Source of the DNA: Mucilaginibacter sp.
GTDB lineage: Bacteria; Bacteroidota; Bacteroidia; Sphingobacteriales; Sphingobacteriaceae
NCBI RefSeq assembly: GCF_025359345.1
Contig: NZ_JANYGQ010000036.1
Span: 1-64,000 of the forward strand
Length of the DNA: 64,000 bases
Reading direction: 5' to 3'
The position numbers were made by a program, and so were the translations under genes. The notes below the pieces were generated by a model that was given only the letters and a program-made list of their open reading frames with translations, searched no databases and had not been told where the DNA came from. The first letter of the stretch is position 1. Each line of letters starts with the position of its first letter. Shown piece after piece: positions 25,234 through 64,000 of the stretch.

Positions 25234-25322
25234 CAAACTTATAACTAATTGATAGTTAAAAAAGTATGTAAAATGAAATATGTGCGCTGTAACGAAAGCG
25301 GGCGTTAGGGCGTGCGGTTTTG
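25234..25322 (-). promoter_or_regulatory. Promoter and dyad element of array gene A
   Basis: TAAGTTTG (25241-25234, minus strand) is a perfect TAnnTTTG -7 box, 29 bp from the TTG start. No TTTG is seen at -33. Further upstream are arm 1 CGAAAGCGGGC (25293-25303) and arm 2 GTGCGGTTTTG (25312-25322), as read on the plus strand, with an 8-bp spacer. Arm 1 begins 88 bp from the start, the same distance as in all other copies. Confidence 0.7.
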
Positions 25323-29245: not shown

Positions 29246-31117
29246 TCATTTTGCAGCAGACAGCAACTCAAAAGATCGCTTTGGGTTAACAAGTTTGATC
29301 CGGCCGTCTGCCGAAACATCCGCTCCATTTTTGATAAGCGCGATCACTTCGGCCGGCTTGAGCGATGGCTTAACAGTGATTAGCTTCGCCGCTAAATTTG
29401 CGATATACGGCGTTGCCATCGACGTGCCCGACAATAAAATCTTTGTACCTCCGGGGGCAAGGCTTTCAACCAGGTAACCATTTGCGTGTATAGCAACCTT
29501 GTTCCCTGTAGCAGTAAAATCAGTTTCGAGGCCGGCGCTGTTTACCGACCCTACGCCTATCATATTGGGGATGTCGAGTGCTGCGGGATATCTCAGGTCG
29601 ATATTGGAATTGGAGTTTTTGTTACCGTTTGATGCAACGAACAGGATACCGGGGGCCGAACTAAACGCATCATAAAGCGCATTTTTACGCATGGTCCATA
29701 ACTTTACTGCCATGGTTTTCTGATCCTCCTCGGGCATTTTTGGATTGTATTTGGCTATATCGCTTTGATAATCGCTTACAAAATAACCCCAGCTCATGGT
29801 CACCACCCGCACGTTTGCGGCTTTCCAATATTGTACCAGGTCCTTCAGGTTTTTGGCCACTTTTTTTTCTGTTTCAACAGAAGGCGAGCCCCCATCCGGA
29901 GTAAATCCAACATCTTCGGTAAACCTAACGGTAAGCAAACGCGCATAAGGGTTGCCGCGCATGGCAATACCCGCTACGTGCGTCCCGTGGATGTAGTCGC
30001 CCACAAAATTTATCAGGCCATAAATCGAGTCGCGTTGTACCACATTTGCTTTTGCGAGGGCGTCTTTATAATAGCGGTAGTCAGCACTTTCCACACCTGC
30101 TTCGTCCTCGCCGTTACCTTTTAGCAACCGCACGGCACTTGGGTATAGTTTTTGTTTTTCTGCTGATAAGGGCATTAGCAGGTGCGTATCTTTATTTTCT
30201 TTACCGTCGTAAGCCACGCCATGAAGATCATCCACATAGCCATTACGGTCGTTATCCAATCCGTCAATTTTTTCTTTTGGGTTAGTGTATAACCTGTCTT
30301 TAAAAAGAGAAATGTCGGTGCCTAAATCAAATACCGATATTACAACGGGTTTATAGGGTTTTCCGGGTAACAGCTGCAAATCGCGCGCGGGCCATATGTT
30401 TACCTGGTTGCGTGCGTTTACATGCGTTACGCTGTCCATTACAGCGGTAACCACCGCACTCACTTTATCAAAATCATGCATTTCATAAAAAAGGAACAAC
30501 ACATAATCTATGTTTCTTATAGAAAGCGGCCCGTTGGCTATAGGTGGGTTCAGGTCGCTAGCGGCAATTTTAACGTATTCCGCAGCGGTCATGTTAGCGT
30601 ATTGCTGCCTGATGCGCTGCAACGACGACGCGGCTGTAACATACGGTATGGTATTTACCGCACTTGTAAAAATGGTTCTGAAATTGGCTATGTAGGAAGG
30701 TGACGCCGGGTCGCCCGCTGCTATCAACGATCTTTTTACCAGGGCGCTGGTGGCTTTGGCTGCGGGTTTAACCTCCAGCATTCTTAAACTATCATAATAC
30801 GTCAATGCCTTTTGCCGGTCGCCATCGTAAAAAGCCAAATCCCCTAATATCCTGTAATACGATTTTAAAACAGCAGTATCACGTATATCAAATTTAGCAA
30901 TATCGGTAGCCAGGTCATTCCTCAGTTGTGAGGCAAACGTTTTGATCTGCTGCTCATTGGCAAGCAGTACGTTAAGACTGTCTTTAACAGCATAGTTATG
31001 TACAGGTAATTGGGCGCCTGAACTAACAATTTGCTTTTGAGCAAACGAATTTGTTGCAAAGAAAAATAACAACGACAGGAAAGTGCCAAACATTTTCGCT
31101 ACGAATACCGGTTTCAT
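29246..31117 (-). CDS. Secreted S8 (subtilisin-like) serine peptidase
   Basis: 623 residues with a signal peptide (cleavage after NSFAQ, residue 27). Residues of about 30-250 are an N-terminal extension that is mainly helical. The peptidase domain spans about 255-610 with the full triad: D264 in VFDLGTDIS, H377 in IHGTHVAGIA and S566 in LSGTSMATP. The oxyanion Asn is N497 in VASNGN. A segment DGLDNDRNGYVDDLHG near 285-300 is typical of bacterial subtilases in this phylum. No C-terminal T9SS sorting domain is seen, so the protein is probably periplasmic or exported by another route. It lies between two copies of a direct repeat and next to array gene B. Whether it processes an array substrate is speculative. 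Confidence 0.92.
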   Translation of the reverse strand: MKPVFVAKMFGTFLSLLFFFATNSFAQKQIVSSGAQLPVHNYAVKDSLNVLLANEQQIKTFASQLRNDLATDIAKFDIRDTAVLKSYYRILGDLAFYDGDRQKALTYYDSLRMLEVKPAAKATSALVKRSLIAAGDPASPSYIANFRTIFTSAVNTIPYVTAASSLQRIRQQYANMTAAEYVKIAASDLNPPIANGPLSIRNIDYVLFLFYEMHDFDKVSAVVTAVMDSVTHVNARNQVNIWPARDLQLLPGKPYKPVVISVFDLGTDISLFKDRLYTNPKEKIDGLDNDRNGYVDDLHGVAYDGKENKDTHLLMPLSAEKQKLYPSAVRLLKGNGEDEAGVESADYRYYKDALAKANVVQRDSIYGLINFVGDYIHGTHVAGIAMRGNPYARLLTVRFTEDVGFTPDGGSPSVETEKKVAKNLKDLVQYWKAANVRVVTMSWGYFVSDYQSDIAKYNPKMPEEDQKTMAVKLWTMRKNALYDAFSSAPGILFVASNGNKNSNSNIDLRYPAALDIPNMIGVGSVNSAGLETDFTATGNKVAIHANGYLVESLAPGGTKILLSGTSMATPYIANLAAKLITVKPSLKPAEVIALIKNGADVSADGRIKLVNPKRSFELLSAAK

Positions 31118-43818: not shown

Positions 43819-43907
43819 CAAAATTGTAACTTGTTGATATATAGTTCACTATGCGATGCCTGAAATCGGCAATGTAACAAAACCGAACATCAGGTCGTCC
43901 GGTTTTG
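43819..43907 (-). promoter_or_regulatory. Promoter and dyad element of array gene C
   Basis: The conserved TTTGGAAC-containing -7 segment lies 28 bp from the TTG start. The dyad CAAAACCGAAC (43878-43888) and GTCCGGTTTTG (43897-43907), as read on the plus strand, matches in 10 of 11 arm positions with an 8-bp spacer. Arm 1 begins 87 bp from the start. Confidence 0.72.
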
Positions 43908-47718: not shown

Positions 47719-47806
47719 CAAATTTGTAAAGAATTGACAGGTAGAAAATTACAATAATTTCCGGACGTTATTGTAATAAAAGCGGACGACAGGGTGTGCG
47801 GTTGTG
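47719..47806 (-). promoter_or_regulatory. Promoter and dyad element of array gene D
   Basis: The conserved segment TACAAATTTG (47728-47719, minus strand) lies 28 bp from the start. Arm 1 TAAAAGCGGAC (47777-47787) and arm 2 GTGCGGTTGTG (47796-47806), as read on the plus strand, have an 8-bp spacer. Arm 1 begins 86 bp from the start. The arms are identical to those of E and G. Confidence 0.7.
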
Positions 47807-51632: not shown

Positions 51633-51721
51633 CAGATTTGTAACGAACTGGCAGATAGAAAATTACGATTTTTTTTGAATTTTTACTGTAATAAAAGCGG
51701 ACGGACGCGTGTGCGGTTGTG
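51633..51721 (-). promoter_or_regulatory. Promoter and dyad element of array gene E
   Basis: The conserved segment TACAAATCTG (51642-51633, minus strand) lies 28 bp from the start. Arm 1 TAAAAGCGGAC (51692-51702) and arm 2 GTGCGGTTGTG (51711-51721), as read on the plus strand, have an 8-bp spacer. Arm 1 begins 87 bp from the start. Confidence 0.7.
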
Positions 51722-51890: not shown

Positions 51891-54800
51891 CTACTCCGAA
51901 CGCAAACTTTTGACAGGATTTGCCACCGCCGCTTTTATCGCCTGGAAACTAATGGTGACCAGGGTAATGACTATAGCCGCTACACCCGATACGATGAATA
52001 CCCCAACACCAATACTTACGCGGTAGGGGTACTTTTGGAGCCAACTGTGCAGGTAATAGAACGCCACCGGCGAGGCAATGACGCAGCTGATGACCACCAG
52101 CACCACAAAATCGCGCGACAGCAGCAGCCAGACCTGCGCTATGGATGCGCCCATTACTTTGCGTATGCCGATCTCCTTGGTACGCTGTTCGGCAACGTAA
52201 GCGGCCAGCCCGAACAGCCCCAGGCAGGATATAAATATAGCCAGCCCGGCGAACACGCCCGCAAGTTTGCCCACAAGCATCTCCAGGTTAAACTTATGCT
52301 CATACTCCTCGTTCACAAACTTGTACTGGTAGGGGTAAGCCGGGTTGTATTTTCCAAATATCTTCCCGATCTTGTCTATCGCGGTATGCGTGCCGGCGTT
52401 TTTCGCAAGCCGGTACGTCACCACAAACCCGAATGGGTTATGCCCGAAAACGGCAGGTTCTACTGGCTTATAAGGCGACTCCATCAGCGCATCTTTTACC
52501 ACGCCGATGATCCTTAGCGGTTTTTGGTTGATGTTTGTGGTTATTAGTTGATTAACAGGGTCTTTCAATCCAATGCGCCTAACCGTCGCTTCATTCACAA
52601 TCACATTCAGCGTGTCGCTTTTCCAGTCGCCCGTAAAATTGTGCCCGGCAGCAAAAGTCATCCCTAAAGTCTTAAAATAGTCGCCCGACACCCATATCGC
52701 GCCGATGTTCACACTTTCGTCGCCCGCATTTTTGCCCGGCCATTTGTCCAGCGAAAAATGACTGTACACGCCTGTCGCCGGCGAGGTTGATGAGGCCACG
52801 CTCTCCACCACTCCCGAAGATAGCAGGTCGTTTTTCAGCGCTTCATAATGTTGCGAAAGGTCGCTGTTCATGTCGGTCATTATCAGCCTGTCGGCGCTGT
52901 AACCTGTCGGCCGGTCCTTCACATACTGTATCTGCTGGTAAACAATCACGGTGCTGATGATTAAAGCAATGGAGCAGGTAAACTGCACCACCACCAGCAC
53001 CTTCCTTGGCACCGATGCCCACCGGCCCGTCTGTATGCTACCCTTCAGCACTTTAACCGGGTTGAACGCCGACAGGTAAAACGCCGGTCGGCTCCCGGCT
53101 GCCAAACCGGTAAACAGCACAAACACAATCATGATACCCCAGAAACCGATATTGCCATATGGAACATGGACATCAGAACCCGTGAGCGTATTGAATGCCG
53201 GCAAAGCCAGCTGAACCAGCAGCAAACACAACAGGAAGGATATAAAAGTGACCAGCACCGACTCCAGCAAAAACTGGTAAACCAAATCGATACGCGCCGA
53301 GCCGATGGCTTTGCGTACCCCAACTTCCCTTGCCCGCTTCTCCGACCTCGCTGTAGAAAGGTTCATGAAATTGATACAGGCGATGGCCAGTACCAGCATA
53401 CCGATAATACTGAACAAACGCACATATTCTACAAAGCCGCCGGCGGGTTTGCCATTTTTAAAATCGTTATATAAATGCCAGTTTGTTAACGGATGCATAA
53501 ACACTTCGGGTTTTGACGAACGCATCTCCGGGCTTCTTTTATTAACGATATCCCTTATCCTGGGAGCAATCTGCCCGTAAGTGACGCCCGGCTTAAGCGA
53601 CACGTAGGCAGAAAATGAATTGTAAGTCCACTTGGTGCGTCCGTCTTTTATCCAGCCCTGGGTTGCTTCGGAGTACGCAAAAGGCACAATGTATTTGAAT
53701 TGCTGCGTGGCATTAGCAGGGATATCGCGGATAACGCCTGTTACCGTCATGTTCTGCGAATTATCAAACCGGATTGATTTTCCCATCGGGTTAGCATCGC
53801 CAAACAGCGCTTTGCCGGTCGATTCGGTTATAACTATCGAATACATATCCTTCAGGGCCGAGTTGGCGTTGCCCTTTATAAAAGGGTATTGAAATATTTT
53901 AAAGAATTCCGGCCCTGCAGCACCTCCACCCAGGTATAGCTTTTTATCGCCCACCAAAAGGCCGTGGTTCATGAAGCCTATATAATCAGCTTCAGCAACG
54001 TACTGTATGCCGGGGATTTCTTTTTTTAAAACGTCGGTTAGTGGTAAAGCTATGGATGTTTGGGTAGTTGTGCCGTTATGCTGCGAGGTCAGGTTCATCT
54101 CAACCTGGTATACTTGCTTATAGCCTGGCAGAAAACGATCGTATGAATATTGGTTAATCACCCATAAACCGATCAGGAGTGCCACAGCCATGCCGGTTGC
54201 CAGGCCGGTGATGTTCAGCATGCTGTAAACTTTGTTATGCAGCGTATTGCGCCAGGCGATTTTTAAATAGTTTCTAAACATATAATTGCGATTTAATTTC
54301 TCAAAAGACCACCCGGGGGCGGCTTCGTTGTACGAAATTATCGCGGCAGAACGGGAATAAGGTCTCAAAGTGTAAGATGGGCGCTCTTTTTCCAGCCTGC
54401 TCTTATATTCCGCCGGGCTTTTCCCGGTCATCTGCCGGAAAGTGCGGTTAAAGGTAGATTTGGAATTGAAGCCGGCATCCATAGCGATGCCGATTAGCGT
54501 GATCCGGTCATAAGCAGGGTCCTGCATTTTCCGGGTCACCTCCCTGATGCGGTACTCATTTATAAAATCATTAAAGTTTTTTCCAAGGGCAGTATTAATG
54601 ATCCGGGACAATTCATTGGGGTTCAGGTTCAGCGCTTCTGCCAGGGAACGTAAGCTTAATTCCGCATCCTGGTAAAACAGGTTGGCTTCCATGATTTTCT
54701 TCAACCAAATGCCTTTTTGCTTCAGTTCAGCCGGGGCCAATAGCTTTGACACCAGACGCGCTGGGGCCGGCATGCTAACGTCAGGCTTTAAAAAGGCTGC

Positions 54801-55508
54801 GGCCGCTATCCGTATCATCATTATAGCTAAAATCAGGTACAAGGCATAATAATCGTGTATGCCCGACTGATGATAATAAAAATAATTCACGGCAGTAAAA
54901 GGGATCCATAATAGCCATAGAAGCCCGAACCCTATCAATAAATCACGCAGCCACCGCAATTCGTACCGATACCGGTCGCTCACATCGTTAAATTTCAGCC
55001 GCCGGTAAAAGCGTTCTATCAGCTTAAAAGAGTAATACAGGTAGATTATGACTGAAAAAAATGCCAGCACCTGCAATACCGGGCTCACATAATGAAAGGT
55101 TAGTGTATCATAAGTAGCTGCACCCGTCTTTATGCTCTCCTTAATCTCCAATACCAGGGCGCCTTGCTCCACCAGCAGCGGGCTAAAATGAAGCAGGTCT
55201 TTCCACCTGAATTTATACTGCGGCCAGGTAAGTTTAAGCACATAATAATAGATGAGGGGGCCAAGCGCCAGCGAAAATTGCAGCGGAAGCCGGCTCCAAT
55301 GTGGAAAGGCGGTCGTCAATCGTAGGTCGATACCCAATATCCACGCCACCCACAAAACTATAGTGGCTAACGCCAGGCTAAGGAACCGGTTAGCAGTTTG
55401 GTTGATTTTTTTGGTGAACCATAATTGCATAATAAAAGTCACGCCGATGAATATCGTTCCCAGGAGTGCAAGGTCGTATGGGGTGATATGGAAAGTATAT
55501 GTATTCAA
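51891..55508 (-). CDS. Array gene F: multi-TM AraC-type regulator fused to a MacB/FtsX permease
   Basis: 1205 residues from TTG at 55508 (LNTYTFHITPYDLALLGTIF). Its HTH is the most divergent of the seven: LSLRSLAEALNLNPNELSRI, ALGKNFNDF in place of ALKKSFNDF, and GIAMDAGFNSKSTFNRTFRQ. The linker is PSYTLRPYSRSAAIISYNE, and the permease starts MFRNYLKIAWRNTLHN. The permease groups with C: VINQYSYDRFLPG, and LFGLAAYVAEQRTKEIGIRKVMGAS near the end, ending ANPVKSLRSE. Gene F thus has a C-like permease and a C-like upstream region but the RSE tail of the other group. It has its own promoter, dyad and terminator. Confidence 0.9.
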   Translation of the reverse strand: MNTYTFHITPYDLALLGTIFIGVTFIMQLWFTKKINQTANRFLSLALATIVLWVAWILGIDLRLTTAFPHWSRLPLQFSLALGPLIYYYVLKLTWPQYKFRWKDLLHFSPLLVEQGALVLEIKESIKTGAATYDTLTFHYVSPVLQVLAFFSVIIYLYYSFKLIERFYRRLKFNDVSDRYRYELRWLRDLLIGFGLLWLLWIPFTAVNYFYYHQSGIHDYYALYLILAIMMIRIAAAAFLKPDVSMPAPARLVSKLLAPAELKQKGIWLKKIMEANLFYQDAELSLRSLAEALNLNPNELSRIINTALGKNFNDFINEYRIREVTRKMQDPAYDRITLIGIAMDAGFNSKSTFNRTFRQMTGKSPAEYKSRLEKERPSYTLRPYSRSAAIISYNEAAPGWSFEKLNRNYMFRNYLKIAWRNTLHNKVYSMLNITGLATGMAVALLIGLWVINQYSYDRFLPGYKQVYQVEMNLTSQHNGTTTQTSIALPLTDVLKKEIPGIQYVAEADYIGFMNHGLLVGDKKLYLGGGAAGPEFFKIFQYPFIKGNANSALKDMYSIVITESTGKALFGDANPMGKSIRFDNSQNMTVTGVIRDIPANATQQFKYIVPFAYSEATQGWIKDGRTKWTYNSFSAYVSLKPGVTYGQIAPRIRDIVNKRSPEMRSSKPEVFMHPLTNWHLYNDFKNGKPAGGFVEYVRLFSIIGMLVLAIACINFMNLSTARSEKRAREVGVRKAIGSARIDLVYQFLLESVLVTFISFLLCLLLVQLALPAFNTLTGSDVHVPYGNIGFWGIMIVFVLFTGLAAGSRPAFYLSAFNPVKVLKGSIQTGRWASVPRKVLVVVQFTCSIALIISTVIVYQQIQYVKDRPTGYSADRLIMTDMNSDLSQHYEALKNDLLSSGVVESVASSTSPATGVYSHFSLDKWPGKNAGDESVNIGAIWVSGDYFKTLGMTFAAGHNFTGDWKSDTLNVIVNEATVRRIGLKDPVNQLITTNINQKPLRIIGVVKDALMESPYKPVEPAVFGHNPFGFVVTYRLAKNAGTHTAIDKIGKIFGKYNPAYPYQYKFVNEEYEHKFNLEMLVGKLAGVFAGLAIFISCLGLFGLAAYVAEQRTKEIGIRKVMGASIAQVWLLLSRDFVVLVVISCVIASPVAFYYLHSWLQKYPYRVSIGVGVFIVSGVAAIVITLVTISFQAIKAAVANPVKSLRSE

Positions 55509-55535: not shown

Positions 55536-55625
55536 CAATTTGTCAACTAGTTGATTTATAGTTAAATATTACTTCAGCAACAAGGAGTGCTGTAACAAAA
55601 CCGGACATCAGTCCGTTCGGTTTTG
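55536..55625 (-). promoter_or_regulatory. Promoter and dyad element of array gene F
   Basis: The conserved segment AAATTG (within 55543-55536, minus strand) followed by GAAC lies 28 bp from the start. The dyad is CAAAACCGGAC (55596-55606) with GTTCGGTTTTG (55615-55625), as read on the plus strand: 10 of 11 arm positions symmetrical, 8-bp spacer. Arm 1 begins 88 bp from the start. Confidence 0.72.
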
Positions 55626-55792: not shown

Positions 55793-58700
55793 TCACTCGG
55801 AACGCAGGCTCCTCACCGGATTCGTCAACGCAGCTTTTATAGCCTGGAAGCTTACGGTGGCAAAGGCTATCACGATAGCAGCTAATCCTGATAATAGAAA
55901 CATCCACAAGCTAATATTAACCCGGTAAGCAAAATCCTGCAGCCAGTTGTACATTAAATAAAAAGCAATTGGCGATGCGATAAGCAACGCAATAATTACC
56001 AGCACTAAAAAATCTTTGCTCAACATGGATACTATGTTGGTAACACTGGCGCCCAAAACTTTACGGATGCCTATTTCTTTAACACGCTGCTGTGCGGTAA
56101 ATGTCGCCAGGCCAAACAATCCCATACACGAAATAAATATTGCGATAAGCATTGCGGTATTCATTAGCTGCGCAGTTTTCTGCTCTTTATCATAAAAGCC
56201 GGCAATAGTTTGGTCTAAAAAAGCATATTCAAATTTTTCGTTAGGATATACCTTTTTCCACGCTTTTTCTACCTGCGTTATTGTTGCTTTAAAACCGTCG
56301 ACGCCTTTGCCCGTGGCTAATTTTATGCTGACGGTCCGTTCCCGGCCTTTTAGCGTACCCATAAAAAATGGGGTTATAACTTCGTGTAACGATTTTGAAT
56401 AGAAATCTTTTACAACACCAACTACCTGCCTTTTTGAATCCGACATTCCCATTTCAACCGTTTTGCCAATAGCATCCTGCGGTTTGCTGAACCCAAGCGC
56501 CTTGGCACATGTTTCATTTAGCAAGTACTCTTTTAAGGTATCAGAGTACGAAAGGTTACGCCCCGCTATAATTTTCAAACCAAATAGGGGTACGTAATTT
56601 TCGTCGCAAAAATCAAACGATGCGTCTATTTTATTCCCGCCCGCACCTTTGTATTCAATAAAGGTTCCCGAATGCCGTTGCGCTGCCGGTGTTGCATGGT
56701 GCCGGCTTACCATTTTTACATTTGATAATTCCCTTACCTTGTTACAAAAAACATCAAGCTGATCTTTAGCGTCATTCCAATTGGCGTGTACGGTAATGAT
56801 AGCATCTTTATTAAACCCAAGGTCTTTATTTAAAACAAAACGTATCTGGTCCCCAACAACCAATGCGCCGATAATAAATACCAGCGACACGGTAAACTGG
56901 AACACGATCAATGTTTTCCGGAGGTAGCTTTTACGACTGCTCGGCGATGTGCCGTCCCCCTTTAAACTTAACGCCGGCAGGTACGACGATAACACCATTC
57001 CCGGATAAAAACCGGCAAGCAACGCTGTTATTATAAGTATGGCACCCAAAAACAAAAGCACTGGCGCACTAAATAAATTTAAGGCCACGCCCTGGGGTAT
57101 AAAGGTGTGGAAGGCTGAAATGATGGGGCTAACGGCCGCCACCGCGATGACCAAAGCTATGGCAGTAACTATAAATGTTTCCACTAAAAACTGGATAGTT
57201 AAATTGCTTTTACTGCTGCCCAGTACTTTACGCACGCCAACCTCTTTTGCCCTGCGCAGCGACTGGGCGGTTGATAAATTGATAAAATTAATAGCTGCTA
57301 TGAGTAATATAAAAACAGCGATAGCCATTAAGCCGTAAAGCGTGGGTAAATGCGCCTGTCGCGAATACGAATCCGGGTAATGGTTATTGAAGTGGATGTC
57401 GGACAAAGGTTGCAGCAACATTTGTACTTTTGACCCTGCCTCCACCCTGATATGTGCTTTAACAAATTGCTGAAACTGTTTCTCAACCTGGGCCTGCGTT
57501 ACCCCTTTCGCCAATTTTACATACCCTTGCGAGTCAGAATCCCACATGCGCCAGCTTTGCAAATCGATATCGTTTTTCAGAAAACTATGCTGAACGGTTG
57601 CAAATGATATAAAGTCCTTAAAGCAAAAGTCGGTATGCTTATCCCAGTCTTCCACAACGCCGGACACCGTAAGCCGCAACGAATCATTGTAAATAACTTC
57701 TTTGCCGACAACCTCCTGCAATGGTGTTGTACCAAAATATTTGTGCACTTCCTGTTGTGATAGCACTACTTTAAAGGGCTCACTTAAAGCTGTAGAGGGG
57801 TCGCCCCGCAGCCACTTGTATTGGAATATTTTGAAATATTGTGGTTCCGCTACAATAACCGGCGAGGTTTCTTCACCCTCTTTTGGCGCGAAAAACTTTT
57901 TAGCGGCACCATTGATGCCAGGTACAGTAACCTTTGCAAAATAATTGTAAAACCCGGTTGCATCTTCAAAGCCGCTCAACTCCTTTCGTGCGGTCATGGG
58001 TAACGCCATTATACCACTACTCCCCTCAGACTTATTTCCCTGGGGATCCTGCATCAACGTTACGAGCCGGTATATCCTGTCCTTATCAGGGTGAAAAGTA
58101 TCGTAACTTAATTCAAAACTGGTTATCAAATAAATAATCAAACAGGCGCATACGCCGAGTGATAATCCAAGCACATTGATGGAGGTATATACCTTATTGC
58201 GGCTGATGCTGCGCCACGCGATTTTTAAATAATTTCTAAACATATAGTTGCGGTTTAATTTCGTGTCCGCCCATTTCGGAGCGGTTTGACGGTACGAAAT
58301 TACCGCGGCCCGGCTGCGATGAAGCCCCAAACTATAAGATGGGGCTTCTTTTTTCAACTCGGCTTTATAGTCCACCGGGTTTTTCCCGGTCAATTGTTTA
58401 AAAATACGGTTATATGAAGTTTTTGAATTAAATCCCGAATCATATGCCAGACCCAGCAAGGTGAGGTGGTCATTAGCAGGGTCCTGCATTCTCCGGATCA
58501 ATTCGGCAACGCGATATTCATTAATGAAATCATTAAAACTCTTTTTGAGCGCAGTATTGATTATACGGGATAATTCATGGGTAGTCAGCTCAAGCCTTTC
58601 GGCCAGCAAGCTTAGGCTTAGTTCCGGGTCCTGGTAATACCGGTTAGCTTCGACAGCTTTTTTCAGCCAAATACCTTTTTGCTTCAATTCAGCCGGCGTC

Positions 58701-59464
58701 TCCGGCTTTAAAGCCGGAGACGGATTAGGCGGCGCGCTAATTTCCGGCTTTAAAAATGCTGTTACCGCCATCCAGATAGCCATTACTGCTAAAAAAAGAT
58801 ACAGGGGATAATATACATGGCGCCCTAATTGGTAATAGTAATCCGCAGCCGTAAAGGGGATCCATAACAACCATATCGCACCAAAACCGGTAAGTAAATT
58901 ATACAGCCATCGCAATTCGTGCCGGTACCTGTCGCTCACAGCGTTAAATTTCTGCCGCCGGTAAAAGTGGTCTATCAGCCTAAAAGAGTAATACAAATAG
59001 ATAATGACTGAAAAAAATGCCAATAGCTGCAATACGGGGTTTACATAATGAAAGGTGAAAGTATCGTAAGTAGCTGCACCCGTTTTTATACTCTCCTTAA
59101 TCTCCAGTGCCAGAACGCCTTGCTCCACCAGCAGCGGGCTAAAATGAAGCAGATCCTTCCATCTGAATTTATATTGCGGCCGGGTAATTTTAAGTACATA
59201 AAAATAGATCAGGGGGCCAAGGGCCAGCGAAAGTTGCAGCGGCAGCCAGCTCCAGTGAGGATAGTAGGCATCAAGCTTGATGTCAATACCTGATATCCAG
59301 GCCACCTGCAAAACGACGCTTGTCAGGGCAAGGGCAAGAAGCCGGTTCGCTGTCTGATTGATTCTTTTTGTGAACCATAACTGCAGGGTAAAAGTCAAGC
59401 CAATAAATATCGTTCCCAGGAGGGCCAGGTCGTAAGGGGTGATATGGAAAGTATATGGGTTCAA
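55793..59464 (-). CDS. Array gene G: multi-TM AraC-type regulator fused to a MacB/FtsX permease
   Basis: 1223 residues from the TTG at 59464 (LNPYTFHITPYDLALLGTIF); an in-frame TTG 30 bases upstream overlaps the promoter box and is rejected. The HTH is LSLSLLAERLELTTHELSRI and GFNSKTSYNRIFKQLTGKNP. The linker is PSYSLGLHRSRAAVISYRQ, and the permease starts MFRNYLKIAWRSISRNKVYT. The permease groups with B: IYLITSFELSYDTFHPDKDRI after TM1, and CMGLFGLATFTAQQRVKEIGI near the end. Its N-terminal 20 residues are almost identical to those of F, while the permease is B-like, which points to recombination between heads and bodies. The C-terminus is NPVRSLRSE. It is the last intact copy before the decayed copy H. 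Confidence 0.9.
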   Translation of the reverse strand: MNPYTFHITPYDLALLGTIFIGLTFTLQLWFTKRINQTANRLLALALTSVVLQVAWISGIDIKLDAYYPHWSWLPLQLSLALGPLIYFYVLKITRPQYKFRWKDLLHFSPLLVEQGVLALEIKESIKTGAATYDTFTFHYVNPVLQLLAFFSVIIYLYYSFRLIDHFYRRQKFNAVSDRYRHELRWLYNLLTGFGAIWLLWIPFTAADYYYQLGRHVYYPLYLFLAVMAIWMAVTAFLKPEISAPPNPSPALKPETPAELKQKGIWLKKAVEANRYYQDPELSLSLLAERLELTTHELSRIINTALKKSFNDFINEYRVAELIRRMQDPANDHLTLLGLAYDSGFNSKTSYNRIFKQLTGKNPVDYKAELKKEAPSYSLGLHRSRAAVISYRQTAPKWADTKLNRNYMFRNYLKIAWRSISRNKVYTSINVLGLSLGVCACLIIYLITSFELSYDTFHPDKDRIYRLVTLMQDPQGNKSEGSSGIMALPMTARKELSGFEDATGFYNYFAKVTVPGINGAAKKFFAPKEGEETSPVIVAEPQYFKIFQYKWLRGDPSTALSEPFKVVLSQQEVHKYFGTTPLQEVVGKEVIYNDSLRLTVSGVVEDWDKHTDFCFKDFISFATVQHSFLKNDIDLQSWRMWDSDSQGYVKLAKGVTQAQVEKQFQQFVKAHIRVEAGSKVQMLLQPLSDIHFNNHYPDSYSRQAHLPTLYGLMAIAVFILLIAAINFINLSTAQSLRRAKEVGVRKVLGSSKSNLTIQFLVETFIVTAIALVIAVAAVSPIISAFHTFIPQGVALNLFSAPVLLFLGAILIITALLAGFYPGMVLSSYLPALSLKGDGTSPSSRKSYLRKTLIVFQFTVSLVFIIGALVVGDQIRFVLNKDLGFNKDAIITVHANWNDAKDQLDVFCNKVRELSNVKMVSRHHATPAAQRHSGTFIEYKGAGGNKIDASFDFCDENYVPLFGLKIIAGRNLSYSDTLKEYLLNETCAKALGFSKPQDAIGKTVEMGMSDSKRQVVGVVKDFYSKSLHEVITPFFMGTLKGRERTVSIKLATGKGVDGFKATITQVEKAWKKVYPNEKFEYAFLDQTIAGFYDKEQKTAQLMNTAMLIAIFISCMGLFGLATFTAQQRVKEIGIRKVLGASVTNIVSMLSKDFLVLVIIALLIASPIAFYLMYNWLQDFAYRVNISLWMFLLSGLAAIVIAFATVSFQAIKAALTNPVRSLRSE

Positions 59465-59491: not shown

Positions 59492-59579
59492 CAAATTTAC
59501 AACTAATTGATATGTAGTATATTATGAGTTGATTGAAATATTTATTGTAATAAAAGCGGACGACGGGCGTGCGGTTGTG
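59492..59579 (-). promoter_or_regulatory. Promoter and dyad element of array gene G
   Basis: TAAATTTG (59499-59492, minus strand) is a perfect TAnnTTTG box, 28 bp from the start. Arm 1 TAAAAGCGGAC (59551-59561) and arm 2 GTGCGGTTGTG (59569-59579), as read on the plus strand, have a 7-bp spacer. Arm 1 begins 87 bp from the start. Confidence 0.7.
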
Positions 59580-59627
59580 GAGTGCGGATGATATTGTCTT
59601 TGTCAAGGAACTTAACCGGAATACAAA

Positions 59628-59657
59628 AAAGCGTCCCGTATCTAACCCCGGAACGCA
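59628..59657 (-). terminator. Terminator-like hairpin between array gene G and remnant H
   Basis: On the minus strand GCGTTCCG pairs with CGGGACGC (one mismatch), followed by TTTTTTGTAT. It is homologous to the terminators of E and F. It is what remains of the 3' flank of the lost copy H. Confidence 0.75.
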
Positions 59658-59695
59658 TCACATAGCGTTTCAACTAAATCTAAGATCTCATGTTA

Positions 59696-59776
59696 TCAAT
59701 TTAAAATTAACGCAAACAGTTGCGTCCCCAGGAAAACCAGGTCATACGTGGCAATATGGAAAGCATACGCATTTAA
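59696..59776 (-). pseudogene. Decayed eighth array copy (H), 5' remnant
   Basis: On the minus strand, 26 codons read LNAYAFHIATYDLVFLGTQL and a few more before TGA TAA. This aligns with the start of G and F (LNPYTFHITPYDLALLGT). The start codon that is TTG in all seven intact copies is TTA here. The rest of the gene, about 3.6 kb, is gone; a terminator-like hairpin of the array type follows directly. Upstream, the promoter-like segment and one dyad arm are kept at the normal distances, so this is a genuine former gene and not a chance match. It cannot make a functional protein. Confidence 0.85.
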
Positions 59777-59803
59777 GTAGTTTTACTTCGTCAATCGTCA
59801 TTG

Positions 59804-59893
59804 CAAATTGTTAACAACTTGCCATATAGCAAGTTGTGTTTTCACTTATCCGGATTATTGTAACGATACTGAACATCAGGCCGTTCGGTTTTG
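59804..59893 (-). promoter_or_regulatory. Fossil promoter and half dyad of remnant H
   Basis: The AACAATTTG segment lies 28 bp from the former start. Arm 2 GTTCGGTTTTG (59883-59893) is identical to that of F. Arm 1 (59864-59874) has decayed to CGATACTGAAC. Arm 1 begins 88 bp from the former start. The remainder of 59894-60014 holds no gene. Confidence 0.65.
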
Positions 59894-60014
59894 AGTTGAA
59901 GTTCACGCGTCTTGGCAGCAAAACATCTTATCGACTTTTTCATTTCAGTCTTTTGTTGAATATCCGGAAATGACCTTTAACCTGCGTTAAGTTAAAAGTC
60001 AACCCTACTATGAA

Positions 60015-61658
60015 TTATTTGTTGCCAGCCATAGTTAATGACATTATTGTAAATGACTTGTTTTTAAAAATGATGTTGCTTGATAGAAACGCCGGCGTTT
60101 TATATTGCTCAAAGGCGCTATTTGGCAATAAAACATAGCTTACCTTGTATTTTGAAAATAATTTTTCAGCCGATGATGGTGCTGAGGCCGCCAGGTAGGA
60201 AAGCATCTCATTCCTGTCATTTTCCCTTTGTTCATAACTAACATACGGATTCGAAAAATAGATCTCAACAGAAACCATTTTTATCCCGGTGGCCATAACC
60301 GGAAAAAGTGATTGATCATGCTTGCAAAGCACCACACGGTCAAGCGGTATGTTTTTGACGATGAAATCGTACACCTCAATTTTATCTGTTTCTTTTTCTT
60401 TAGCCAGCGCCTGTTGCCTTGGTACTGCAAAATCAGCCCTGTTGCTATAAATAGGGTAGTAAATGATTGTATATAACAAAACGAATATTACGAACAGGTT
60501 GGATGAAAGTACCACCGGAATTTTCCGGAAGCGTCTCTTAGCGGTGTAGCCTTCTATCCAACGCATTGCCAAGTCGACTAAATAAACGAAACCAAATGCG
60601 AAGAAAACCGACTGTACCCCTTTAAGGTAAAAGAAATAATGCAGCGCCGGGATCGTATCAGGCAGGGTAATATGCAATATACGGTTGGCCGCAGGTAAAA
60701 TGGCCTCGTATACGTACATGAAAGCTGTGGTGTAAAGCCAATACAGGATTATTTTTCTAATTAACGGGTTGTCATATTTCTTGTAGAAAGTCACAAACCC
60801 AATTGCGGCTATCACGAATGAAAAAGTCAGGTTTAATTTCAATAATTCTATCGAATTAGCCCTGGCGAAAATCCCGGGAGCGCATTGCAGAATTATCCGG
60901 TTCACGAAGTGCAGGTGGTACTTTATTAATACAAAATATAGGAACGGAAAACTAAATACCAGGAACGGAATTAACGTAAAAAGGCCTTGCAGGAGATAGG
61001 TCTTTATCGACGAATATTCTTTTGCTTTTATGGCAGCGATAACTTTCTGCCCTTGCAACAAAATCAGCATTAAAATAATAATTATGGTTGGGGCTGCGTG
61101 CCCAAGAAAGCCTATACCTAAAAATATTCCAAGAATAATAAACCATCTTATGTTTTGCGTTGAAAACGCCTGGTAACACAAAAAAATATTGAAATAAAAT
61201 ATAAACTGTACGTAACAATTAGCCAGCGGCAACGGAGAATAAGTTGCGCCGCCCCAGCCGGGCATATTACCCGTAGCTAAAAAAAGGAAGGACAACAACG
61301 CAGCTAAGGCAATCTTATAGTCAAATAACTTTCTTGCCATTATGAAAAAGAAAATAGGCCCTAAAAGGTTTAAAAATGCGCCAGCCCTTGCTACTACAAC
61401 ATTTATTGGGAGTTCGGTAATTTTAACTATCGCCGCTTCGGATAAGTACAGCAAAGGATTGTACCACATGTCTTCTCCAATATAATTAGGGTCGCTGCCG
61501 TAGTGTCCATTTAACGTGTTACGGATATAACCGATATCCCGGTCAAAGTCGGGTTCAAAAGCCCAATGCAAGCCATGAACCGCTTTATAACATTGCAGAA
61601 ATGCGAATAGCAGCATTATAATAAAGGCCGCTAAGTATTTGATATTTTGTGATTTCAT
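60015..61658 (-). CDS. GT-C-like integral membrane protein (possible glycosyltransferase)
   Basis: 547 residues with about 11-12 TM helices. After the first helix, the first loop contains EPDFDRDIGYIRNTLNGHYG with closely spaced acidic residues, the place where GT-C enzymes (GT39/GT83-like) carry their catalytic Asp. The last 120 residues form a soluble periplasmic-type domain (KEKETDKIEVYDFIVKNIPL and on). Such proteins transfer sugars from polyprenyl-phosphate carriers to lipids or proteins. The family assignment is by topology and motif only, so function is tentative. It stands alone, with 396 bp without genes upstream and the array remnant downstream. A polysaccharide or lipoprotein modification role is possible. 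Confidence 0.6.
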   Translation of the reverse strand: MKSQNIKYLAAFIIMLLFAFLQCYKAVHGLHWAFEPDFDRDIGYIRNTLNGHYGSDPNYIGEDMWYNPLLYLSEAAIVKITELPINVVVARAGAFLNLLGPIFFFIMARKLFDYKIALAALLSFLFLATGNMPGWGGATYSPLPLANCYVQFIFYFNIFLCYQAFSTQNIRWFIILGIFLGIGFLGHAAPTIIIILMLILLQGQKVIAAIKAKEYSSIKTYLLQGLFTLIPFLVFSFPFLYFVLIKYHLHFVNRIILQCAPGIFARANSIELLKLNLTFSFVIAAIGFVTFYKKYDNPLIRKIILYWLYTTAFMYVYEAILPAANRILHITLPDTIPALHYFFYLKGVQSVFFAFGFVYLVDLAMRWIEGYTAKRRFRKIPVVLSSNLFVIFVLLYTIIYYPIYSNRADFAVPRQQALAKEKETDKIEVYDFIVKNIPLDRVVLCKHDQSLFPVMATGIKMVSVEIYFSNPYVSYEQRENDRNEMLSYLAASAPSSAEKLFSKYKVSYVLLPNSAFEQYKTPAFLSSNIIFKNKSFTIMSLTMAGNK

Positions 61659-62054
61659 TGTTAATGATTTCCTGGATTCAACTTAGAAAGTTATCTATCG
61701 CTTTGATTCCTGGCAGGCTGCCTGGCCTCGCGCGCGTCGTTTTCTTTTTCTGTTAAGAGTGGTGATTGTTGGCGGGAAAATGGCCGATCGTTATGAATCG
61801 AACAAATACCCATTCAAACCTTGTGTTTTACAAAGTTTGCAATGGCGGTTGCCGGAATTAATGAATTGCAGGTTTTTAATTACGCTTAATATCTCAATTC
61901 TCTGAATTGCCAGGTTCAATTATTCCACATACACTGTGTGCACAATAATTTTGAATGAGGAAATACAGATAAATCGAAATGTAAACTGTTATTGATACAA
62001 GCGTTATTTACACGACAATAAAATAACAGGCCGCCGATTGACAGCAGTGCTTGA
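61659..62054. other. Gene-free intergenic region, 396 bp
   Basis: No supported gene, RNA or repeat is seen. A 41-codon ORF on the plus strand (from ATG at about 61781) has no signal peptide or recognisable motif. The region presumably holds the promoter of the GT-C-like gene and the 3' end of the Cys-rich protein gene. A short GC-rich stretch lies near 61720-61740. Confidence 0.5.
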
Positions 62055-62477
62055 TCAAATTAGAAGAGAATGATTGGAGATGTAGATTGGTTGACTAAAA
62101 ACAAATGGAGGCCCCGTTGCGCCTGGCCACCTGATAGAATTACCTATAATGGTAGGTATTGGGGCAAACTGCGCAGGTGCGGGTTCAAGTATGGCGAGAT
62201 GAACTATTGAAAATTGAAATTCAGGAGATCCGCTAAAATTTTCGTTAACTACATAGGTGCCGTGATGGTAGCAGCAACTACAGTCATCGCCGCACTTTTC
62301 ATCGTCTTTATCAGAATCGCCTTTATGGGCATCATCTTCTGCCGTTTCATGGCTTTGTACAATAATACCTAATTTAGAAAATACAAATTCAGTAGTGCAA
62401 TGTAGCAAACAACTATAGGTACCTGTTGTCAACAACAAGTAAAAAGCCGTCAAACTAAATACACACAGTCTTCTCAT
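62055..62477 (-). CDS. Secreted Cys/His/Asp-rich protein, HYC_CC_PP-like, metal-efflux associated
   Basis: 140 residues with an N-terminal hydrophobic signal (MRRLCVFSLTAFYLLLTTGTYS). The mature part has CLLHC, an acidic stretch (ETAEDDAHKGDSDKDDEK) and a dense CGDDCSCCYHHG cluster, then a hydrophobic C-terminus containing TGPPFVF and ending YISNHSLLI. The spacing of a HC-type motif, a CC pair and a PP pair resembles the HYC_CC_PP family of small proteins found beside heavy-metal efflux genes in Bacteroidota. The first motif is not canonical, so this is a divergent member at best. It lies 127 bp downstream of the CusB-like adaptor on the same strand. A periplasmic metal-binding role is inferred. 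Confidence 0.6.
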   Translation of the reverse strand: MRRLCVFSLTAFYLLLTTGTYSCLLHCTTEFVFSKLGIIVQSHETAEDDAHKGDSDKDDEKCGDDCSCCYHHGTYVVNENFSGSPEFQFSIVHLAILEPAPAQFAPIPTIIGNSIRWPGATGPPFVFSQPIYISNHSLLI

Positions 62478-62604
62478 TAATATGCCTGAAAAAGATTTTT
62501 AAATTTTATTATGCCCGTAAAAAATGCCTCGCAGGTTCACGTCTTAAAGGTATTATTTATATCCTAAATTTCACATAATAAATGCAATCTCTTGTTTTAA
62601 AAGC

Positions 62605-63855
62605 TCACATTTTCATGCCCCCCATCTGGTCGTTACCGTTTTTAAAGATAGCTTCACTATTTAAAAGATAAGCCCCGTTTGTTACCACAATATCGCCTGC
62701 ATTTAAACCTGAAATGACGGTGATATAATTTTGGTTCCCTTTGCCTTGTTTGATCATCTTTGGCGAGTAGCTTCCGTCTGTGTTTTTTACCCATACTTTA
62801 TCGCCGGTCCCATCTGATAGTACGGATGTGACAGGAATAGCCAAAGACCGCTGAGCGCCGGAGGCTAATGAAATATAAGCAAGCATTCCAGGCTTGATCA
62901 ACCCTTGTGTGTTTGGTATGCTGATACGGATCAAATCTACTTTTGAGGCATCAGACAATTCAGGGTTGATAAATTCAACTTTCCCTTTTATTACCCGGCC
63001 GCCAAGGTCAGGGAACGAGACACTTACCTGGTCATTTTCTTTATACGTTCCCGCTTCATTCGCATAAAGCTGCGCTTGCACCCATAAACTGGTTAATGCC
63101 TGGGTTTTCAGGATAGCCATGCCTTCTGTTATATAATCGCCCTCATGAACAGCTATTTCACTCACTGTCCCGTTTACCGGGCTTTGAATATTTATGGTTG
63201 CAGAAACTTTTCCGGTAGAAGCCAGGCTCCTGATTTGAGCCTTGGTAATACCCCATAGTTTGAGTTTATTTTCGGCTGCGCCTATTACTTGCTTGTAATC
63301 AACATCCGGATTATTCAATACTTTTTGTTGCTGCACCGCCAGCAGGTATTCTTTCTCTGCTTCCTGCAAATCTTCGCTGTAAATGGAATAAACAGGTTGG
63401 CCAATTGTTATTTTTTCACCCACGGCCCTAACAAAAAGCTGTTGTATCCGTCCTGAAATTCTGGCACTTAGCTGTTCAGCCAGGTTTTCGTTTGTGCTAA
63501 CCGTTCCTGTCAAGGTTTTTTCATTTCCGATATTTTCTTCCCGCACCGTGTCCGTTTCAATACCGGCCAGCCGGATTTGCGATGCCGTCAGCATGATTTT
63601 ATCGCCTGAGGTACCGGCATTAGTACCCGTTATCTCTACTTTGATCAATTTCATACCGCAAATTGGGCAATTACCGTCATGGTCTTCATGTACCTGTGGA
63701 TGCATCGAACAGGTGTAATAGGCTTTGCTTTGTGCCTTTGTTACCGATTGGGGTTTTTGTTTGCAGGCGGTAAACAACGCCGCTAATACTAAAACAAACA
63801 GTATACACTTCCCTGTTATCATAAACTTCAAAATCCTTGTGTGCTTATTTTTCAT
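62605..63855 (-). CDS. CusB-like RND efflux periplasmic adaptor with heavy-metal-binding domain
   Basis: 416 residues from the ATG at 63855 (MKNKHTRILK); the longer reading begins inside the preceding gene. A lipobox with Cys at 31 (LFTAC) anchors it. Residues 48-70 are the heavy-metal-binding domain YTCSMHPQV and CPICGMKL (C49, M51, H52, C63, C66). The membrane-fusion region follows: a beta-barrel, a lipoyl half (ISGRIQQLFVRAVGEKITIG), an alpha hairpin (about 165-215), and the second lipoyl half (SPVNGTVSEIAVHEGDYI). It links an inner-membrane RND pump to an outer-membrane channel for export of Cu/Ag or similar ions. Its ATG overlaps the upstream gene's stop by 11 bp, so translation is coupled. 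The pump and channel genes must lie beyond 64000. Confidence 0.92.
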   Translation of the reverse strand: MKNKHTRILKFMITGKCILFVLVLAALFTACKQKPQSVTKAQSKAYYTCSMHPQVHEDHDGNCPICGMKLIKVEITGTNAGTSGDKIMLTASQIRLAGIETDTVREENIGNEKTLTGTVSTNENLAEQLSARISGRIQQLFVRAVGEKITIGQPVYSIYSEDLQEAEKEYLLAVQQQKVLNNPDVDYKQVIGAAENKLKLWGITKAQIRSLASTGKVSATINIQSPVNGTVSEIAVHEGDYITEGMAILKTQALTSLWVQAQLYANEAGTYKENDQVSVSFPDLGGRVIKGKVEFINPELSDASKVDLIRISIPNTQGLIKPGMLAYISLASGAQRSLAIPVTSVLSDGTGDKVWVKNTDGSYSPKMIKQGKGNQNYITVISGLNAGDIVVTNGAYLLNSEAIFKNGNDQMGGMKM

Positions 63856-64000
63856 TTTCCCGGGTTTTAATAAAACTTTCACTATCCGTTAAATATTGGG
63901 CATTTTCTGCCAGGCTATCAGTCACGGCTAAACCTTTGGTAATTTGTATCTCATTCCCGTTTATTATTCCTGTACTCACCTGGCGGGCTTTAAATAACTG
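63845..64000 (-). CDS. C-terminal fragment of a second efflux periplasmic adaptor (runs off window)
   Basis: The frame entering from the right edge encodes 51 residues: QLFKARQVSTGIINGNEIQI, then TKGLAVTDSLAENAQYLTDSES and FIKTRENEK before TAA at 63847-63845. The pattern of V-x-TG, ITKGL and YLTDSESFIK matches the membrane-proximal C-terminus of CusB/CzcB-type adaptors (compare VTNGAYLLNSEAIFK in the neighbouring gene). So two adaptors are encoded in tandem. The gene overlaps the next start by 11 bp. Its N-terminus and exact subfamily are outside the window. Confidence 0.75.
   Translation of the reverse strand, partial: QLFKARQVSTGIINGNEIQITKGLAVTDSLAENAQYLTDSESFIKTRENEK

Follow-up and report, generated by a model that had tools for sequence, protein, structure and literature searches.

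Truncated pseudogenes in tandem paralogue arrays arise by internal deletion or unequal recombination. Here, we describe a stretch of DNA beside a seven-gene array in Mucilaginibacter. Its alignments give good support to reading it as the non-coding front-end remnant of a gene that joins an AraC-type HTH part to a MacB/FtsX-type permease part. We call this remnant the stub. The window, meaning the whole analysed stretch of 64,000 nucleotides, is on contig C16 of a 6.9-Mb draft genome.

The array genes A to G are all on the minus strand and encode 1205-1233 aa as mechanical ORFs. They and the two members most relevant to the stub are positioned as follows.

25205, 34969, 43791, 47691, 51605, 55508 and 59464, minus strand: starts of the seven array genes
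51891-55508, minus strand: gene F, whose first 240 nt are the window's closest to the M. flavidus gene with the stub-type front end described below (87.1% identity, next best 78.8%), and which is the sister of that gene in a tree of these 240 nt
55793-59464, minus strand: gene G, 1223 aa, with the conserved TTG start at 59462-59464 by alignment

In a Pfam search with its longer mechanical ORF, gene G is laid out as an N-terminal part with the AraC-type HTH followed by a MacB_PCD/FtsX permease. G and C, the two of the seven that were scanned with Pfam, each carry HTH_18, two MacB_PCD stretches and two FtsX stretches. HTH_18 scores 48.6 bits in G and 47.8 bits in C against a gathering score of 33.6, and MacB_PCD and FtsX are over their gathering scores in both.

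The paired stretches resemble those of the MacB-type ABC permeases, but the array genes are fused to HTH_18 and neither G nor C has an ATPase family match. Similarly, the C-terminal ~800 aa of G and F cover positions 5-803 of the 803 in the ADOP permease model (NCBIfam TIGR03434). However, these two scanned genes score 293.8 (G) and 280.7 bits (F), below the curated cut-off of 622.3, and the array genes add the N-terminal part with the AraC-type HTH.

Literature searches found no work on FtsX with AraC or on an 'FtsX-like permease' in Mucilaginibacter, and nothing on tandem MacB permeases with AraC in Bacteroidetes. Broader searches gave listed matches that were judged unrelated from titles and the starts of abstracts. 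Within the genus, the N-terminal part of G is matched in 96 of 149 genomes by 1 to 19 pieces each, where one gene can yield several pieces, so pieces per genome are not gene counts. Beyond the array, its own genome has one distant relative, which appears on contig C8 as two pieces of one 1149-codon frame.

The stub covers about 170 bases at 59723-59893 on the minus strand and consists of an operator-like dyad, a promoter-like TTTG, a leader and 18 codons. A first-pass annotation of this DNA had located it correctly. The parts, and those that follow toward gene G, are listed in the direction of transcription.

59859-59893, minus strand: operator-like dyad of the stub, with 0 of 35 positions changed against the intact M. 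flavidus gene
59804-59807, minus strand: TTTG of the -7-like promoter element, seen in the sequence and inside the profile match
59777-59803, minus strand: leader from TTTG to the start, in gapless alignment to the M. flavidus gene
59723-59776, minus strand: 18 remaining codons with the start TTA at 59774-59776; the profile match stops at 59723
59695-59722, minus strand: junction filler, outside the profile match and the F/E-block match, with most of a small hairpin
59626-59694, minus strand: 3'-UTR-like block with a terminator-type hairpin, 88% identical to the F/E spacer
59546-59576, minus strand: second-type operator-like dyad belonging to gene G, absent between the two M. flavidus matches

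The homology was examined with a nucleotide profile made of 65 start regions from other genomes, leaving out the own genome and M. flavidus. It finds eight matches in the window, namely the seven genes and 59723-59834 on the minus strand, the stub (E=2.5e-21). The same profile has no match in the reversed window or in 10 dinucleotide shuffles retaining at least 98% of the window length.

Pairwise, the local alignment scores of 59600-59910 (minus strand) with the flanks of the array genes were compared with the best of 500 dinucleotide shuffles, leaving out G, whose row is an overlap of two queries. The 5' ends of C and F score 60 and 81 against best shuffles of 28 and 31, and the F/E spacer before E matches the later part of the segment with a score of 100 against 26. 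The score for D is 57 against 27, although the matched part may be spacer. A and B singly score 29 and 23, under their best shuffles of 35 and 27, so these two give the stub no support. Hence, the first-pass expectation of an alignment to the flanks of A to G better than shuffles holds with C and F and fails with A and B.

The coding capacity of the stub is gone, with a TTA start and homology that stops after 18 of about 1220 codons. About 26 codons had been thought to survive; the frame is indeed open up to a TGA, but its last eight codons are outside the match. The stub lacks a start codon for an in-frame peptide, yields no protein in the array-gene frame and is transcribed into a short RNA at most. 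It contains an out-of-frame ATG, and a small hairpin (59709-59726) is right at the junction of stub and spacer. We considered whether codons 1-18 form a conserved leader element and dropped this idea, as the codon-choice diversity at codons 2-18 is in about the range of codons 19-38, judged by eye, with no clear sign of conservation.

The aligned start codon is TTG in 71, GTG in 3, ATG in 2 and CTG in 1 of the 77 distinct starts from the window and the fetched loci. The script had tallied 70 TTG and one CTT, and the CTT row (locus L040) was read as a gap-shifted TTG. As TTG interchanges with ATG and GTG at this codon, a real start is indicated, and the comparison with M. flavidus favours the conserved TTG as this family's true start codon. 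Such persistence of a non-ATG start is unusual. TTA occurs in none of the 77 starts and the syntenic M. flavidus gene has TTG, so the first-pass claim that the stub start mutated from TTG to TTA is well supported.

Upstream, the Bacteroidetes promoter consensus is TTTG/TANNTTTG at -33/-7 (PMC6847099). The stub has the TTTG, and the TA two bases before it is absent, as in the M. flavidus gene. The following base is C in the stub and G in 73% of 63 starts. The dyad begins 117 nt before the dead start when counted from its first C, equal to 116 in the survey measure, and the distance is the same in M. flavidus; dyads of this kind stand 113-117 nt before the start in 57 of the 77 starts. The spacing that the first-pass annotation noted is thus upheld.

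The first-pass annotation took the dyad for decayed, with only one arm left, which is incorrect. The whole dyad, second arm (...TATCGTTACA) included, has the same sequence in the intact M. flavidus gene, and this arm type is found in 8 of the 77 starts, M. flavidus among them, ruling out the decay of the arm.

Two exact dyad patterns occur at 4 and 3 places in the 6.9-Mb genome and at none in the controls. Six of the seven places are before array genes A, C, F, D, E and G and one is before the distant relative on C8. Neither pattern recognises the variants at B and the stub, so the places found are an incomplete census. The six places in the window are as follows.

25288-25321, 43873-43906, 47772-47803, 51687-51718, 55591-55624 and 59546-59576: dyads found by the patterns

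The last of them, G's own, has the stub dyad 313 bp upstream of it. From this distribution, the array-gene dyad is a candidate private operator, and we infer that the array proteins may bind it.

Downstream of the stub, the hairpin GCGTTCCG...CGGGACGC is present at 59631-59656, as the first-pass annotation noted. The 26-nt motif is also at C2:258387 and C2:291403, beside ORFs that seem unrelated judging by their translations. We dropped it as array-specific evidence for this reason. At the stub, it is outside the minimum-energy fold (z -0.20), whereas the F/E copy is inside the fold (z -1.76). A terminator scan with a loop limit of 8 did not list the stub hairpin because its loop is 10. It seems to be a shared terminator-type element weakened at the stub, where it is still present but folds poorly.

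The best match within the genus is a 20-kb locus (L051) that we infer to come from Mucilaginibacter flavidus RT5R15 (NZ_JAMXOE010000022.1). At the stub's place, it has an intact 1223-aa gene with a TTG start (L051 8092-11763), adjoining the same HlyD-type gene as in the window. This is the intact copy in a related strain that the first-pass annotation proposed to seek. The locus matches the window at 62592-63998 with 95.8% identity and at 59724-59974, the stub and its upstream side, with 84%.

The M. flavidus locus has a single gene where the window has the stub and G, and this gene is the stub's front end joined to G's body. The window segment 59453-59723, with G's operator-like dyad and first codons, has no counterpart in L051, and two matches overlap there. 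At this place L051 also lacks 59975-62591, as well as the genes that lie between B and C; C to F have only paralogue-level matches in the 20 kb compared. The 2.6-kb segment 59975-62591 holds a 547-aa ORF with no Pfam or NCBIfam match and with relatives in 19 of 149 genus genomes, its own included. The B counterpart in M. flavidus (L051 3239-6906) is in two pieces, a regulator part of 389 aa and a permease part of 810 aa.

The M. flavidus gene and G share 75.6% identity up to column 240, 99.6% in columns 240-2590 and 91.5% in the final 1083. Only 1 of 333 fourfold sites differs over nt 240-2589 (55793-59464 versus L051 8092-11763), while 12.6-18.7% differ in the HlyD gene, B's permease part, the gene at 29246-31117 and G's 3' end. 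The tract of nt 240-2589 probably stems from a recent exchange between the two lineages, and by these identity steps G and its counterpart read as a mosaic gene. The recently shared 99.6% tract hides the original join. Beyond M. flavidus, the next long matches of the HlyD region are at most 73% identical, and by similarity of this region we found no third genome able to polarise the locus.

The substitutions between the stub and the M. flavidus gene are unevenly spread. Changes number 0/6 before the dyad, 0/35 in it, 5/34 from it to -48, 2/18 from -48 to -31, 3/30 in the 30 bases before the start and 12/54 in the codons. The dyad with its six adjoining bases (0/41) differs from the codons with a Fisher p of 0.00095 and from the rest of the aligned stretch (22/136) with a p of 0.0026. 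The regions were chosen after viewing the alignment and a single species pair was compared, so the constraint is a lead only.

At 13 of the 17 sites that differ from -48 on, the base in M. flavidus is more frequent among 63 other starts than the stub base is; the reverse holds at four (-41, +11, +25 and +53). The frequency of the stub base is at most 2% at -27, the start codon, +12 and +24. The codon changes of 12/54 are near the 13-19% at the fourfold sites of the neighbouring genes.

We prefer the history that an eighth gene, H, lost its body here, with a probability of about 0.58. On this view, the ancestor carried two genes at this place, a complete F-like H and then G. A deletion in the window lineage would have removed H from codon 18 to a point within its 3'-UTR, so that the stub came to adjoin the terminator-like block of H; its start codon and other codons would have drifted afterwards. 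M. flavidus would have acquired its joined gene, with H's front and G's body, when H and G recombined.

The order of the stub, an F/E-like 3' block, a second-type dyad and G copies that of F, spacer and E. A complete F-like unit formerly at this place would account for the resemblance of the block after the stub to the spacer after F. G's first 240 nt have no close donor in the window, and the copy number varies across the genus. Against this history, the stub-type front end leads into a G body in M. flavidus, and no examined genome showed H and G as two full consecutive genes at the locus. The undrifted operator sites and the four sites at which the stub has the commoner base also go against it.

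The alternative is that the stub is G's own old front end and no eighth gene was ever here. The ancestor would have had a single gene as in M. flavidus, and the window lineage would have recombined a new spacer, operator and ~80 codons onto G, leaving the old promoter and 18 codons behind. The M. flavidus gene joins the stub's front to G's body, so the stub could be such a displaced front end. In that gene, nt 80-560 are F-like without a break (85-92% in 80-nt steps), while the window's G is F-like only from nt 240 (71% before), a pattern for which a displaced front end needs fewer events. The last 1083 columns of G look orthologous with a fourfold difference of 18.7%. The dyad types appear to track the N-terminal tree imperfectly, with 33 of 72 starts untypable, so members of the family may have exchanged front ends.

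However, this alternative needs a donor for the spacer and 240 nt, and within the window F comes nearest to G's first 240 nt with 79.1%. It also requires one illegitimate junction, and nt 0-80 are closer to F in the window's G (86%) than in M. flavidus (78%). The nt 240 break coincides with an edge of the recently shared tract, so a transfer of the tract into G would give the same pattern. We hold the displaced front end to be a credible but less probable history. The loss of gene H remains our preferred reading, and the stub as a separate eighth gene, the first-pass proposal, is plausible and tempered by the joined gene of M. flavidus.

The wider family bears on array turnover. Among 54 distinct start regions in loci of at least 5 kb outside the window, 49 open into frames of 1000 codons or more or run past the locus end, and five lead into shorter, broken genes. 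By tblastn, these are split frames in L051 and L096, one gene in three pieces and another with an inverted piece in L061, and, at L101 from 13852 onward, a promoter and about 22 codons that run into the permease part with the regulator part deleted. Thus, damage to members appears not rare, with the caveat that several of these loci are draft metagenome assemblies, in which assembly errors are possible. The gain and loss of array members, as claimed at first pass, is supported by this and by the single M. flavidus gene in place of the stub and G.

A further reading, compatible with either history, is that the stub is an orphan operator for the AraC-type parts of the array proteins, acting either as a decoy or as an additional site for G. 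The retained array-specific dyad might then bind the membrane-bound AraC-type proteins, tuning G or titrating the regulators, an outcome to which we give small odds. The contrast of 0/41 with 22/136 speaks for it, as do the dyad patterns found only before array genes and the C8 relative with no control matches. On the other side, the contrast comes from 41 sites of one species pair, picked after the alignment was viewed, the M. flavidus copy is under a constraint of its own, both patterns miss B and the stub, and the binding is putative. If true, gene loss in the array would leave a working control element behind, and if the constraint is real, the stub would be a modest, testable example of a control site that has outlasted its gene.

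Chance resemblance, which the single alignments to A and B would allow, has practically no probability left and is ruled out by the pairwise shuffles for C and F and the profile search with its empty controls, together with the synteny with the intact M. flavidus gene.

In summary, the stub and its intact syntenic counterpart show how a changing array of regulator-permease fusions loses and rearranges its members. The remnant is of an ordinary kind and its small surprise is the unchanged likely control site. Like other truncated pseudogenes in tandem arrays, it is homologous with intact neighbours, has lost its start and body and shows neutral-like drift in its codons, and an intact gene stands at its position in a relative. 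It differs from them in that its operator-like part is undrifted and that its intact counterpart has the body in common with the neighbouring gene G.
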